DNA from: a bacterium | GTDB lineage: Bacteria > Thermosulfidibacterota > Thermosulfidibacteria > Thermosulfidibacterales > JALWSI01 | Assembly (NCBI GenBank): GCA_027080315.1 | Contig: JALWSI010000133.1 | Coordinates: forward strand, 1-5,676 | DNA: 5,676 bases | Reading direction: 5' to 3' | Part shown: positions 1 to 5,676 of the stretch, in pieces | Layout: each line of letters starts with the position of its first letter | How positions within the stretch are numbered: the first letter of the stretch is position 1 | Program-made: the position numbers and the translations under genes | Notes under the pieces: model-generated | The model's input: only the letters and a program-made list of their open reading frames with translations | Databases searched by the model: none | Told to the model about the DNA's origin: nothing

Positions 1-17
1 TCCTCCCCCCTCCACCA
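1..17 (+). tRNA. 3' end of a tRNA, probably tRNA-Tyr (partial)
   Basis: The first 17 bases read as the tail of a tRNA. Positions 2-6 fit the 3' strand of a T stem, 7-13 (CCCCTCC) the 3' strand of an acceptor stem, A14 the discriminator, and 15-17 an encoded CCA. The implied 5' acceptor strand, GGAGGGG, together with discriminator A, is typical of bacterial tRNA-Tyr. The position just before tRNA-Gly and tRNA-Thr matches the Tyr-Gly-Thr order of the E. coli tufB operon. The anticodon lies outside the window, so the identity is inferred. Only five bases (18-22) separate it from the next tRNA, so both must be cut from one precursor. Confidence 0.62.
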
Positions 18-22
18 TTTGG

Positions 23-98
23 GCGGGAATAGCTCAGGTGGTAGAGCATCAGCCTTCCAAGCTGAGGGTCGCGGGTTCGAGTCCCGTTTCCCGCTCCA
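23..98 (+). tRNA. tRNA-Gly(TCC)
   Basis: A complete cloverleaf can be folded by eye. The acceptor stem 23-29 pairs with 88-94, the D stem 32-35 with 44-47, the anticodon stem 49-53 with 61-65, and the T stem 71-75 with 83-87 (one G-T pair). The anticodon loop 54-60 carries TCC at 56-58, which reads GGA and GGG glycine codons, with wobble to the others. The discriminator is T95, as is usual for bacterial tRNA-Gly, and CCA is encoded at 96-98. It is the middle of three closely spaced tRNAs ahead of tuf, probably processed from a shared transcript. Confidence 0.97.
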
Positions 99-118
99 TA
101 ACTAAGAGGAAACTATGT

Positions 119-191
119 GCCCACGTAGCTCAGGCGGTAGAGCACACCCTTGGTAAGGGTGTGGTCGGCGGTTCAAATCCGCCCGTGGGCT
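119..191 (+). tRNA. tRNA-Thr(GGT), no encoded CCA
   Basis: A complete cloverleaf is visible. The acceptor stem 119-125 pairs with 184-190, the D stem 128-131 with 140-143, the anticodon stem 145-149 with 157-161, and the T stem 167-171 with 179-183, with T loop 172-178. The anticodon GGT at 152-154 decodes ACC and ACT threonine codons. The discriminator is T191 and is followed by TTT, so the CCA end is not encoded and must be added by tRNA nucleotidyltransferase, unlike in the two tRNAs before it. A tRNA-Thr directly ahead of tuf is the E. coli thrT-tufB arrangement. Confidence 0.97.
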
Positions 192-289
192 TTTCTATTT
201 AAGGGCTAAGGCTTACTCGGTGGTGTGGAGGGCCTTTGAGGATAAGAGGGAGAGAAGCTTGTTAAGCGTAGTAAGGGAGGAGAGTAGAG
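192..289 (+). other. Leader between tRNA-Thr and tuf, with a weak hairpin
   Basis: These 98 bases hold no gene. A short run of T follows the tRNA (TTTTCTATTT), but no GC-rich stem precedes it other than the tRNA itself, so a terminator is not supported. A weak hairpin is possible: AAGGC at 208-212 pairs with GCCTT at 232-236, extendable by two G-T pairs around a 15-base loop. A second small palindrome, GCTT-GTT-AAGC at 257-267, lies just ahead of the tuf ribosome binding site. I see no convincing -35/-10 pair, so read-through from the tRNA promoter is the simplest source of tuf mRNA. The region could serve as a processing site separating tRNAs from mRNA; that is inference. Confidence 0.4.
275..280 (+). 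promoter_or_regulatory. Ribosome binding site of tuf
   Basis: GGGAGG lies nine bases before the ATG at 290, complementary to the 3' end of 16S rRNA. It supports the tuf start, which also gives the normal EF-Tu N-terminus. Confidence 0.85.
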
Positions 290-1483
290 ATGGGAAAGGC
301 TAAGTACGAGCGGACGAAGCCGCATGTGAACATAGGAACCATAGGGCACGTGGATCATGGAAAGACCACCTTGACTGCAGCGATAACGAAGGTGTTATCG
401 GAGAAGGGGTGGGCGGATTTCACGCCTTTTGAAGAGATAGACAAGGCTCCTGAGGAGAGGGAGAGGGGAGTCACCATCAATGTTGCACACATAGAGTACG
501 AGACGGAGAAGAGGCACTATGCGCACATAGACTGTCCTGGGCACGCTGACTACATCAAGAACATGATCACTGGGGCTGCCCAGATGGACGGAGCCATTTT
601 GGTTGTGAGTGCGGCGGATGGGCCTATGCCCCAGACCAGGGAGCACGTGCTGTTGGCAAGACAGGTTAACGTGCCAGCCATAGTGGTTTACCTAAACAAG
701 GTGGACATGGTTGATGATCCTGAGCTGTTGGATCTGGTGGAGTTAGAGGTGAGGGAGTTGCTCTCCAAGTACGAGTTTCCAGGGGACGACATACCGGTGA
801 TTCGTGGGAGTGCGTTGAAGACCCTGGAAGGGGACACTGGGGAGTATGGGGCTGAGTCCATCTTAAAGCTGATGGAGGCAGTGGATAGCTACATACCTGA
901 GCCTGAGCGTCCTGTAGATCAGCCTTTCCTTATGCCCATAGAGGACATTTTCTCTATCTCTGGAAGAGGGACCGTTGTTACTGGCAGGGTAGAGAGGGGT
1001 CGCATAAGGCCAGGAGAAGAGGTGGAGATAGTAGGGTTAGGCGAGACCCGGAAGACGGTTGCCACCTCTGTAGAGATGTTCCGTAAGATTTTGGACGAAG
1101 GTTTAGCGGGAGACAACATAGGAGTACTGTTAAGGGGAATAGGCAAGGACGAGGTGAAGAGGGGCCAGGTGTTGGCTAAGCCAGGGAGCATCAAGCCGTA
1201 TAGGAAGTTCAAGGCGGAGGTGTACGTGTTGACCAAGGAGGAAGGTGGACGTCACACGCCGTTTTTCCCTGGGTATCGACCTCAGTTCTACTTCAGGACC
1301 ACTGATGTTACGGGTACGGTGATATTGCCTGCTGATCGAGAGATGGTGATGCCTGGAGACAATGTGAACATAGATGCTGAGTTGATCTATCCTGTAGCGT
1401 TGGAGCCTGGGTTAAGGTTTGCGATAAGGGAAGGTGGTCGCACGGTTGGAGCTGGAGTGGTCACCGACGTTATTGAGGATTGA
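290..1483 (+). CDS. tuf: Elongation factor Tu (EF-Tu)
   Basis: EF-Tu is the cytoplasmic GTPase that carries aminoacyl-tRNA to the ribosomal A site. At 397 residues it is full length. The G domain shows the P-loop GHVDHGKT at 19-26, the switch I threonine T62 in RGVTI, the DCPGH motif at 81-85 with catalytic His85, NKVD at 136-139, and SALK at 174-177. Domain II begins near 210 ([13 protein letters not shown] at 225-237), and domain III carries the conserved GGRHTPF and MVMPGD stretches and ends in [11 protein letters not shown]. Key residues are all present. tRNA genes precede it and rpsJ follows three bases after its stop, with tandem stops TGA-TAG. Its leucine codons are mostly TTG/TTA (19 of 28 by hand count), unlike the downstream ribosomal genes, which hints at a separate history. 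Whether this copy is tufA, tufB or the only tuf cannot be told from the window. Confidence 0.99.
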
Positions 1484-1486
1484 TAG

Positions 1487-1807
1487 ATGGCTACACAGTG
1501 GATGCGCATAAAGCTTAAGGCTTACGATCACAAGGTGCTGGATAAGTCTGCCGAAGAGATCGTTAAGGCGGCTGTTCGCACCGGGGCAAAGGTGGCAGGA
1601 CCCATACCTCTGCCCACAAAGATCAGCAGATACACGGTTCTTAGAGGGCCTCACATTGACAAGAAATCCCGGGAGCAGTTTGAGATCCGCATCCACAAGA
1701 GACTGCTTGAGCTTAGAGATAGCACCTCGGATACCATAGAGGCCTTGAGTGAACTTGATCTTCCTGCAGGTGTGGAGGTTGAGGTTAAGCTTATGGACAC
1801 CCCGTAA
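1487..1807 (+). CDS. rpsJ: Small-subunit ribosomal protein S10 (NusE)
   Basis: S10 sits in the 30S head and, in the family, also acts with NusB in transcription antitermination and links NusG to the ribosome. The 106-residue product matches family length. It begins [19 protein letters not shown], and the S10 core runs from about 37 to 72, including [25 protein letters not shown] and IRIHKR. The C-terminal strand [11 protein letters not shown] is typical. The ATG at 1487 follows the tuf stop after only one extra codon (TAG). Its Shine-Dalgarno site, TGAGGA at 1474-1479, lies within the last codons of tuf, so translation is probably coupled. Unlike the E. coli S10 operon, there is no room for a separate untranslated leader ahead of this gene. 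Leucine codons are almost all CTN (10 of 11), in contrast to tuf. Confidence 0.99.
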
Positions 1808-1829: not shown

Positions 1830-2465
1830 ATGGTAGAAGGCATACTTGGCAAGAAAGTAGGGATGACACAGGTGTTCACCGAAGACGGGATGGTGATCCC
1901 CGTCACGGTGATAGAAGCAGGTCCCTGTACAGTGGTGTGTAAACGCACAAAAGAGAAAGACGGCTACACTGCGGTGCAGTTAGGGTACATACCTGCTAAG
2001 AGGAAGCATCTTAACAAGCCCCTTTTAGGGCAGTTTGAGAAGAGAGGGGTTCCTCCTTTCAGGGTTTTAAGGGAGTTTCCGGTAGGCGAAGATGCCCTCT
2101 CTGAGCTGGAAGAGGGCAAAGAGATAAAGGTGGACATCTTTGAGAAGGGCGATAAGGTGTCTGTTACCGGTAAGAGCAAGGGTAAGGGCTTCCAGGGTGC
2201 CATGAAGCGTCACGGTTTCAGTGGTATGCGGGACAGCCACGGTTCCCGGTACCACAGAACGGTGGGAGCCATAGGACAGCACACCTTCCCCGCCAGGGTC
2301 TTCAAGGGCCTGAGAATGGCTGGCCAGATGGGGAATAAGAAGGTGACTGTCAGGGGATTGGAGGTGGTTGAGGTGATCCCCGAAAAGAACCTCTTGCTGG
2401 TTAAGGGCAGCGTTCCTGGAGCCCGTAATGGACTCCTTGTGATAAAGAGGATGAAGGGTAGATAG
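1830..2465 (+). CDS. rplC: Large-subunit ribosomal protein L3
   Basis: L3 is an early-assembly 23S rRNA-binding protein whose long loop reaches towards the peptidyl-transferase centre. From the ATG at 1830 the product has 211 residues, normal for the family, and begins [16 protein letters not shown], the standard L3 start. The conserved loop spans roughly 118-150 ([15 protein letters not shown], then SHGSRYHR and GAIGQ). Gln150 aligns with the glutamine that PrmB methylates in E. coli; modification here is inference. [18 protein letters not shown] at 163-180 is the other family block. An in-frame GTG at 1821 would add three residues (MET) and has its own possible Shine-Dalgarno site, AAGGGG at 1806-1811. 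I prefer the ATG because it gives the usual N-terminus and has AAGGTGGAG just upstream. The gap to rpsJ is 22 bases, the largest between coding genes here. Confidence 0.96.
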
Positions 2466-2467
2466 CC

Positions 2468-3094
2468 ATGGCTGTGGTAGAAGTGAAAAACGTTGCTGGT
2501 GAGAAGGCGGGGGAGCGTGAGCTTTCAGCTGCTGTCTTTGAGGCTCCTGTGAAGACCCATCTCCTCTACGAGGCTGTGAAGTGGCAGATGAACGCCAAAA
2601 GATCTGGCACCGCCTGCACCAAGACCAGAGGAGAGGTGGCTGGTGGAGGAAGGAAGCCCTGGAGGCAGAAGGGAACAGGCAGGGCCCGGCAGGGCTCCAT
2701 AAGGGCTCCCCACTGGGTAGGTGGAGGTACGGTCTTTGGACCTCGTCCCCGCTCTTACGCCACCAAGCTGCCCAAAAAGGCGAGAAAGGCCGCTTTGAGG
2801 GCTGCCCTGAGTGCCAGGTTGAAGGACGGCGATATGGTGGTGGTGGACGAGCTGAGGCTTGAGGATCACAAGACCAAGAGCGCCAAGGCCATGCTTCAGT
2901 CTCTTGGACTTTGGGAGAAGAAGCTGTTGATAGTGGTTCCTCAGATAGACTTCTTCTTAGACAGAAGCACCAGCAACCTTCCCTTTGTGAAGGTTATTCC
3001 CGTTGAGGGTCTGAACGTTTACGACCTTCTCAATGCCGAGGTGGTGCTCTGTACCCAGTCAGCCATTGATAGGATAGAGGAGAGACTCTCATGA
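2468..3094 (+). CDS. rplD: Large-subunit ribosomal protein L4
   Basis: L4 binds 23S rRNA domain I and lines the exit tunnel with an extended loop; in E. coli it also represses its own S10 operon. The 208-residue product is of family length. The tunnel-loop block runs from about 59 to 95: [18 protein letters not shown] at 59-76, then [18 protein letters not shown]. The globular C-terminal half shows [19 protein letters not shown] at 100-118 and the VVVDEL strand near 124-129. The ATG is two bases after the rplC stop, with GAAGGG at 2453-2458 as ribosome binding site inside the end of rplC. Its own stop overlaps the rplW start (ATGA). Whether L4 controls this operon as in E. coli is unclear, since no S10-type leader is seen before rpsJ. 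Confidence 0.98.
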
Positions 3095-3390
3095 AGATGC
3101 GCAAAGATCCGTATCAGATCATCATACGCCCCATCATCACTGAGAAGAGTATGCTGGCAAAAGAGACCGCCAACACCGTCACCTTTGAGGTGCACCCCAA
3201 GGCCAACAAGTCAGAGATAAAGAAGGCGGTAGAGCAGCTCTTTGGGGTAAAGGTCCTCTCTGTGAACACCCTTAACGTGAAGGGCAAGACAAAGAGGTTT
3301 CGTTTTGTGAGGGGCAAGAAGAAAGACTGGAAGAAGGCCATGGTTAAACTGAAACCCGGTGAGACCATTGACCTGTTTGAGGGGGTGTAA
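3091..3390 (+). CDS. rplW: Large-subunit ribosomal protein L23
   Basis: L23 sits at the exit of the polypeptide tunnel and is the docking site for trigger factor and signal recognition particle. The 99-residue product carries the family N-terminus ([14 protein letters not shown] at 10-23) and the core [20 protein letters not shown] at 32-51, followed by [17 protein letters not shown]. The basic loop [17 protein letters not shown] at 74-90 and the ending ETIDLFEGV are typical. The ATG at 3091 overlaps the rplD stop by four bases (ATGA), a classic coupling arrangement, with GGAG at 3079-3082 as its ribosome binding site. A second ATG two codons later is possible but unneeded. Confidence 0.98.
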
Positions 3391-3393
3391 GCC

Positions 3394-4218
3394 ATGGGCG
3401 TGAGAAGATGTAAGCCAACCTCCCCTGGTCGTAGATTTATGTCCTTCTCGGACTTTGCCGAGATAACCAAGACCGAGCCCGAAAAGTCTCTGCTTAGGCC
3501 CCTGAAGAAGACAGGGGGGAGGAACAACAAGGGAAGAATAACCGTCAGATTCAGAGGTGGCGGTCACAAGAGAAGGTACCGCTTAATTGACTTTCGTCGC
3601 GACAAAGACAGCGTGCCTGCAAAGGTTGCAGCCATAGAGTACGATCCCAACAGGTCGGCGAGAATAGCCCTGCTTCACTACTTGGACGGAGAAAAGAGGT
3701 ACATACTGGCCCCCGAGGGGCTCTCGGTGGGTGATACCGTTGTTTCAGGGCCCGAGGCTGAGGTTAAAGTGGGCAACGCCATGCCCCTTGATAAGATCCC
3801 TCTGGGTTCCTTCATCCACAACCTTGAGATAACCCCAGGTAAAGGCGGTCAGATGGTCCGCAGCGCAGGGACCTACGCCCAGCTCATGGCCAAAGAGGGT
3901 GGCATGGCCCACGTGAAGCTTCCCTCGGGAGAGATAAGGCTCTTTTCCGTTAAGTGTAAGGCCACCTTGGGTCAGGTGGGCAATGTGGATCACGAAAACA
4001 TCGTGCTGGGTAAGGCTGGACGTAACAGGTGGCTTGGTAGAAACCCCCATGTGCGTGGTACAGCAATGAACCCTGTTGATCACCCCCACGGCGGTGGCGA
4101 GGGGCGCACCAAGGGTCGCCATCCTGTTACTCCTTGGGGAGTGCCCACCAAGGGTCATAAGACCCGTAAGAAGGGCAAGTACTCTGACAAGTTCATAGTT
4201 AGACGGCGTAAGTCCTAA
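3394..4218 (+). CDS. rplB: Large-subunit ribosomal protein L2
   Basis: L2 is one of the most conserved ribosomal proteins. It is needed for subunit association and lies near the peptidyl-transferase centre. The 274-residue product is full length. It shows the basic N-terminal region with [20 protein letters not shown] at 41-60, the OB-fold and SH3-like core (about 75-200, including [22 protein letters not shown]), and the hallmark [12 protein letters not shown] at 226-237. His230 corresponds to E. coli His229, linked experimentally to peptidyl-transferase activity. The C-terminus, [20 protein letters not shown], is basic as usual. The ATG follows the rplW stop by three bases, with GAGGGGG at 3379-3385 as ribosome binding site. 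Leucine codons are mainly CTN (15 of 18 by hand count). Confidence 0.99.
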
Positions 4219-4235: not shown

Positions 4236-4523
4236 GTGGCGAGATCCATAAAGAAAGGACCCTATGTTGATCCAAAACTTCGCAAGAAGGTTGAAGAGAT
4301 GGATAAGCGGGGAGAGAAGAAGGTTATCAAGACCTGGTCCCGCAGATCAACCATTATTCCAGAGTTTGAGGGTCATACATTTGCGGTTCATAATGGTAGA
4401 AAGTTTGTTCCCGTCTATGTGACGGAGCAGATGATAGGGCACAAGCTGGGGGAGTTTGCTCCTACCCGTACATACAGGGGGCATGGGGCAGACAAAAAGG
4501 GGAAAAAAGGAAAGGTGCGTTAA
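4236..4523 (+). CDS. rpsS: Small-subunit ribosomal protein S19 (GTG start)
   Basis: S19 lies in the 30S head, binds 16S rRNA with S13, and forms bridges to the 50S. The product is 95 residues, close to the family norm. Family marks are [18 protein letters not shown] at 2-19, [20 protein letters not shown] at 32-51 with Trp34, and the signature [19 protein letters not shown] at 62-80 followed by RGHG. The tail (KKGKKGKVR) is lysine-rich. Translation starts at GTG, read as Met, 17 bases after the rplB stop and behind a strong Shine-Dalgarno site. Its TAA stop forms part of the next gene's Shine-Dalgarno site. Confidence 0.98.
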
Positions 4524-4532: not shown

Positions 4533-4904
4533 ATGGCTACCACAGGTAAGAGAAGCCCAGGGGTGAGAGCTGTGGGGAGGTATCTCAGGGTGTCGCCCCG
4601 TAAGGCAAGGGTGATTGCCGATATGATAAGGGGCAAGGACGTGGAGGAGGCCATGAACATCCTCAGCTTTGTCCCCCGAAGGGCGTGCAAGGTGATTGAG
4701 AAGGTGCTCACCTCTGCAGTTGCCAATGCAGAGGCCAGCCCTGACATAGAGGATCCTGATGCACTCTACATCAGGGAGATCATGGTGGATGGAGGTCCTG
4801 TTCTGAAGCGCTACAGGCCCAGGGCCATGGGTCGTGCCACCATGATCAGGAAGAGAACGAGTCATATCACAATTATTCTTGACGAACGGCGTAGCGGGAG
4901 GTGA
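4533..4904 (+). CDS. rplV: Large-subunit ribosomal protein L22
   Basis: L22 contacts all 23S rRNA domains, and its long beta-hairpin reaches into the nascent-peptide tunnel beside L4, where macrolide-resistance changes occur in the family. The product has 123 residues. It shows [20 protein letters not shown] at 12-31, the helix region [20 protein letters not shown] at 45-64 followed by NAEA, and the hairpin from about 85 to 116 with [20 protein letters not shown] at 93-112. The hairpin is intact and of ordinary length. The first ten or so residues (ATTGKRSPG) are a short extension seen in some lineages. Its TGA stop lies four bases before the rpsC TTG start, and its last codons supply the rpsC ribosome binding site. 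Confidence 0.98.
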
Positions 4905-4908: not shown

Positions 4909-5574
4909 TTGGGTCAGAAGGTTCATCCTATAGGGTTTCGCTTAGGCGTCATTAGAGATTGGGATTCTCGCTGGTTTGCCAGCAAGAGGGAGTATTCTAA
5001 GAACCTGCACGAGGATCTCAGGATAAGGAAGTATCTTAAAGAGCGTCTTTATCATGCTGGAATCTCAAGAATAGAGATAGAGCGTGCCACCAAAAAGATA
5101 AAGATAGACATCTACGCCGCTCGTCCAGGTATAGTTATTGGTAGAAAAGGGGCTGAGGTAGAGAAGATTAAGAAAGAGCTGGCATCTCTCACCGACAAGC
5201 AGGTGATTCTGAACATCATGGAGGTGTCCATCCCTGAGACCGATGCCCAGCTGGTGGCTGAGAACGTTGCCATGCAGCTTGAGAGGAGAGTAGCCTTTAG
5301 AAGGGCTATGAAGAGAGCGGTTAACACCGCTTTGAAGTTTGGGGCCCAGGGGGTGAAGATAAGCTGCGCCGGAAGGCTTGGCGGAGCAGAGATGGCAAGG
5401 CGTGAGTGGTATCGCCAGGGACGTGTTCCTCTTCACACCCTAAGGGCAGACATAGACTACGGTACCACAGAATCCCACACCAAGTACGGGGTAATTGGCG
5501 TCAAGGTGTGGATATTCAAAGGAGAGGTTGTCTCTTCTGACAGGGAGGAGAAGAAGACCGATGTTGGCTCCTAA
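4909..5574 (+). CDS. rpsC: Small-subunit ribosomal protein S3 (TTG start)
   Basis: S3 forms part of the mRNA entry channel in the 30S head. From TTG 4909 the product is 221 residues and begins [18 protein letters not shown], the near-universal S3 N-terminus. The KH domain carries [20 protein letters not shown] at 71-90 with the GRKG loop at 78-81. The basic stretch FRRAMKRAV at 130-138 corresponds to residues implicated in E. coli ribosomal helicase activity. [20 protein letters not shown] at 155-174 and [13 protein letters not shown] at 194-206 are C-terminal signatures. The frame stays open upstream to another TTG at 4879, but that would overlap rplV by 26 bases and add ten residues foreign to the family. 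The short tail, without a long basic extension, resembles S3 of Gram-positive-type length. Confidence 0.97.
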
Positions 5575-5676
5575 AAAGGTTAAGTTTCGTAAACAACAGC
5601 GGGGCAGAATGAAGGGCATCGCCCGGGGTTCAGACATCTCTTTTGGAGAGTTTGGACTTCAGGCCTTGGAGCCCAC
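5561..5676 (+). CDS. rplP: Large-subunit ribosomal protein L16 (5' part)
   Basis: L16 organises the A-site side of the 50S subunit and is a late-assembly protein. Only the first 38 codons are in the window; the gene runs off the right edge. They read [19 protein letters not shown] followed by [19 protein letters not shown], the standard L16 N-terminus (basic RNA-binding start, then [10 protein letters not shown]). The start at ATG 5561 lies inside rpsC, with a 14-base overlap in another frame. A purine-rich GGGAGGAGAAGAAGA at 5543-5557 provides the ribosome binding site. Nothing looks broken up to the edge. Confidence 0.96.

Follow-up and report, generated by a model that had tools for sequence, protein, structure and literature searches.

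Gene order around a single tuf gene

The tufB-secE-rpoBC-str-S10 cluster has an old and conserved order in bacteria (PMC8046335). On the contig analyzed here, a single tuf gene joins a tRNA cluster of the tufB type directly to the S10 operon that follows tufA, which raises the question of whether this order exists on any chromosome. The original prediction offered three options: a misjoin at duplicated tuf genes, a genome with one tuf gene, and a chromosomal rearrangement. The first is upheld by the evidence below and the other two are not. The order in the window very probably does not correspond to a real locus; an ordinary duplicated-tuf arrangement would lie underneath.

The window is the whole of contig G000:C133 (5676 bp), so sequence to the left of tRNA-Tyr does not lie on it. 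Its source is a metagenome-type draft genome that totals 1.84 Mb over 253 contigs, with 94% completeness and an estimated contamination of 2.8%. The following features were located:

1..17, + strand, 3′ end of tRNA-Tyr with acceptor strand and CCA, truncated where the contig begins; from the match to G001:C39
23..98, + strand, tRNA-Gly (TCC); ARAGORN, Rfam RF00005
119..191, + strand, tRNA-Thr (GGT); ARAGORN, Rfam RF00005
253..327, + strand, sequence also present, letter for letter, at the end of fusA contig C248; left boundary of the repeat common to the tuf copies; from contig comparison
290..1483, + strand, tuf (EF-Tu, 397 aa)
1487..1807, + strand, rpsJ (S10), starting 3 nt past the tuf stop; this right flank belongs to tufA
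1830..2465, + strand, rplC
2468..3094, + strand, rplD
3091..3390, + strand, rplW
3394..4218, + strand, rplB
4236..4523, + strand, rpsS
4533..4904, + strand, rplV
4909..5574, + strand, rpsC
5561..5676, + strand, beginning of rplP, truncated where the contig stops; named from its position in the S10 operon

ARAGORN, Rfam and the reading frames thus bear out the predicted order of a tRNA-Tyr end, tRNA-Gly, tRNA-Thr, tuf, rpsJ and the S10 operon. The left part was further identified from a relative of the same order, G001. Its contig C39 aligns with window 1-194 at 91% and carries at the match the full cluster tRNA-Thr(TGT)-Tyr(GTA)-Gly(TCC)-Thr(GGT); window 1-17 corresponds to the end of tRNA-Tyr(GTA), which lies directly before tRNA-Gly there. 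The tRNA-Thr gene at 119-191 has no encoded CCA, while the neighboring tRNA-Gly and tRNA-Tyr genes encode theirs.

The two sides of the window's tuf match different types of locus. On the left, the Tyr end, Gly and Thr tRNAs stand directly 5′ of tuf as they do before tufB; the rpmG, tRNA-Trp, secE and nusG genes of a tufB neighborhood do not come next in the window, where rpsJ follows, and tRNA-Trp-secE-nusG are found on contig C192. On the right, tuf is followed by rpsJ and the S10 operon as tufA is; the fusA gene that precedes tufA is not upstream in the window, and occurs instead with a tuf start on contig C248.

A second tuf start and the skipped genes

Only one full-length tuf is present in the draft genome. 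A DNA search of this genome with window 1-1700 revealed that the last 78 nt of C248 match window 253-330 at 77/78 positions. From position 253, 75 nt are identical, comprising a 37-nt leader and the start of tuf, followed by a mismatch at 328 (G in the window, A in C248). This difference, at 3 nt from where C248 ends, may be an error of the contig end. Before the match, C248 consists of the fusA end and a spacer that bear no resemblance to the window on its tRNA side. C248, which contains rpoC, rpsL, rpsG and fusA, therefore ends with the leader and opening 41 nt of a further tuf gene, with a different sequence upstream. A matching tuf start behind unrelated upstream sequence means that there are two tuf starts, in two contexts, in one genome.

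Contig C192 carries tRNA-Trp-secE-nusG-rplK-rplA-rplJ-rplL and then the start of rpoB. The contig breaks off with the first base of tRNA-Trp, short of any tuf 3′ end. Its content is that expected downstream of tufB, that is, genes expected between tufB and tufA. The segment skipped by the window, about 15 kb of essential genes, is thus present in the same genome as C192 and C248. The original prediction had named two linkages that would tell a chimera apart, and both point to one at the level of contigs, not of reads: fusA is followed by a tuf start on C248, and secE-nusG is flanked by tRNA-Trp before and rplKAJL-rpoB after on C192. The search with window 1-1700 found no further tuf 3′-end pieces in this genome, in which the rpmG side of tuf is not assembled.

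Two other pieces of the draft were considered as parts of the locus. A candidate for the first tRNA-Thr(TGT), absent from the window contig, sits at the end of C155. As the missing left neighbor this contig gained no support: the stretches on the tRNA-cluster contigs of G001 and G002 have no match among its reading frames, and linking it to the left side of the window would be a guess. A second NusG-family protein (C119; L130 212-751) was also set aside as the cluster nusG, being a different protein of 179 aa in another gene context.

Gene order in relatives of the same order

Eight genomes of the same order were compared. The most continuous layout is that of G007, in which one 40.7-kb contig runs from a tuf 3′ end (331 nt) through rpmG-tRNA-Trp-secE-nusG...rpoC-rpsL-rpsG-fusA to a full tuf and rpsJ. 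Its two directly repeated tuf pieces are 99.1% identical over 331 nt. The order fusA-tuf-rpsJ is likewise found in G005 and G008.

Other relatives have contigs that end inside tuf (G001, G002, G003 and G006). In G001, contig C39 leads from the tRNA-Thr-Tyr-Gly-Thr cluster into tuf and ends there, its last 131 nt (leader and tuf start) being identical to sequence on C16. Contig C16 in turn begins with a tuf 3′ end, continues through rpmG, tRNA-Trp and nusG to fusA, and closes with a full tuf, the end of which has exactly 151 nt in common with the rpmG-side start of C16 itself and also with contig C14 on the rpsJ side. The tRNA, fusA, rpmG and rpsJ sides of G001 all converge in identical tuf sequence. 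Similarly, a tuf end of exactly 141 nt is common to the rpmG contig and the rpsJ contig of G003. Shared ends of this kind mark a direct repeat that the assembly left unresolved.

G002, from another family of the order, displays the same apparent hybrid as the window, with a tRNA cluster, tuf and rpsJ on C62. Its secE...fusA contig, C21 (15,074 bp), begins in a tuf 3′ end and finishes in a tuf 5′ end. The two tuf ends of G002 are set apart by one base, so this genome also has two copies.

Probable collapse of the tuf repeat and alternative explanations

Taken at contig level, these comparisons make it highly likely that the window order arose when the assembler falsely joined two copies of tuf. 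The ordinary layout would be tRNA-Thr-Tyr-Gly-Thr, tufB, rpmG, tRNA-Trp, secE-nusG-rplKAJL-rpoBC, rpsL-rpsG-fusA, tufA, rpsJ and the S10 operon, in which gene conversion most likely maintains the near identity of the two directly repeated tuf genes. Such a 1.2-kb repeat exceeds the length of short reads, and a graph with tRNA and fusA as left edges and rpmG and rpsJ as right edges can then be traversed wrongly, from tRNA to rpsJ. The metagenome assembler would have merged both copies, entering from the tRNA side of tufB and leaving by the rpsJ side of tufA. The contig would then be right in its left and right parts and chimeric somewhere inside tuf, a gene that most likely combines the left edge of tufB with the right edge of tufA. 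The genome's own C248 and C192, together with the order in relatives, support the ordinary layout and a crossing by the assembler from tufB to tufA. As expected of a collapsed direct repeat, tuf occurs in two contexts and contigs end at its edges (C248; G001, G002, G003, G006). There is no break in G+C or third-position G+C at the join, G+C staying at 0.50-0.58 in 200-nt steps; such smoothness is what a misjoin within one genome predicts. Searching the literature for tuf copies collapsed during assembly returned nothing specific.

A genuine rearrangement, in which recombination between tuf genes placed the tRNA cluster before tuf-rpsJ and moved secE...fusA with its own tuf elsewhere, is very unlikely. 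The same apparent order in G002 speaks for it, and tuf-tuf recombination is documented in Salmonella by papers cited in PMC1780047. However, the intervening segment of G002 is flanked on both sides by tuf pieces, the contig ends of G001 and G003 converge in tuf as at an unresolved repeat, and the standard order persists in relatives, in G007 on a single contig. Moreover, the tuf copies are directly oriented, so that a crossover would excise the essential genes rpoBC, fusA, nusG and secE, and an additional reinsertion would be required. A variant with a real tRNA-tuf-rpsJ order on the chromosome and secE-rpoBC-fusA with its own tuf elsewhere, for example on a circle released by tuf-tuf recombination, is given even less credence, although an excised circle and a collapsed direct repeat yield an identical assembly graph. 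Were an excised circle or a rearrangement true, a block of essential genes would have been displaced from its place.

The remaining alternatives are scarcely credible. The tRNA and S10 sides could derive from different strains or species fused at the conserved tuf, as a metagenome-type draft with some estimated contamination might allow; yet neither the even G+C nor the leader that C248 also carries requires a second organism, and a repeat within one genome is simpler and already accounts for the join. Loss of one copy, leaving tRNA-tuf-rpsJ in a single-tuf genome, agrees with the lone full-length tuf of the draft but is contradicted by the second tuf start after fusA on C248.

Leader identity and known tuf systems

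The 37-nt leader 5′ of tuf (window 253-289; L088 9951-9987) is identical in both copies, and beyond it the sequences are wholly different. Such identity between divergent flanks suggests that gene conversion extends past the start codon, and fits homogenization that reaches beyond the tuf coding sequence into the leader. In bacteria with two tuf genes the copies stay near-identical, which is generally ascribed to gene conversion (PMC1780047, PMC6053082). Compared with this tufA/tufB pair under concerted evolution, the present genome likewise has two near-identical copies, here with identity into the leader and the second copy only partly assembled; no difference in kind was seen. Compared with the conserved cluster (PMC8046335), the same genes are found in the same inferred order, from the four tRNAs (Thr-Tyr-Gly-Thr) to S10. 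The window contig differs in being without the segment between the tuf genes, which is put down to assembly, not biology.

Hybrid orders among tuf loci

A survey covered 110 tuf copies, drawn from 80 loci of other genomes and from the relatives, with a small overlap between the two sets. The order fusA-tuf-rpsJ accounted for 46 of the 110 copies and tRNA-tuf-tRNA-Trp/nusG for 34. The hybrid tRNA-tuf-rpsJ was found three times and its reciprocal, fusA-tuf-tRNA-Trp/nusG, four times. Among the other-genome loci, hybrid orders occurred in 6/80, all on metagenome contigs and mostly on very short ones. The hybrid-bearing metagenome contigs had a median length of 5.5 kb, compared with 53.5 kb for the other metagenome loci (Mann-Whitney p ~6e-6). 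None was found in 25 isolate or single-cell records, a contrast that alone is not significant (Fisher p = 0.17). With hybrids in six of these loci and in one relative, automated synteny studies could score them as rearrangements; gene order in the tuf neighborhood of metagenome-assembled genomes should not be taken as evolution.

Two gammaproteobacterial loci from metagenome series 354-166, L009 and L069, have the order tRNA-Tyr-Gly-Thr-tuf-rpsJ, the latter on a contig of 22.7 kb, and are probably the same kind of misjoin. The reciprocal hybrid fusA-tuf-tRNA-Trp/nusG is carried by L010, L027, L031 and L042 on short metagenome contigs. These four could be misjoins as well, or the real order in some of their lineages.
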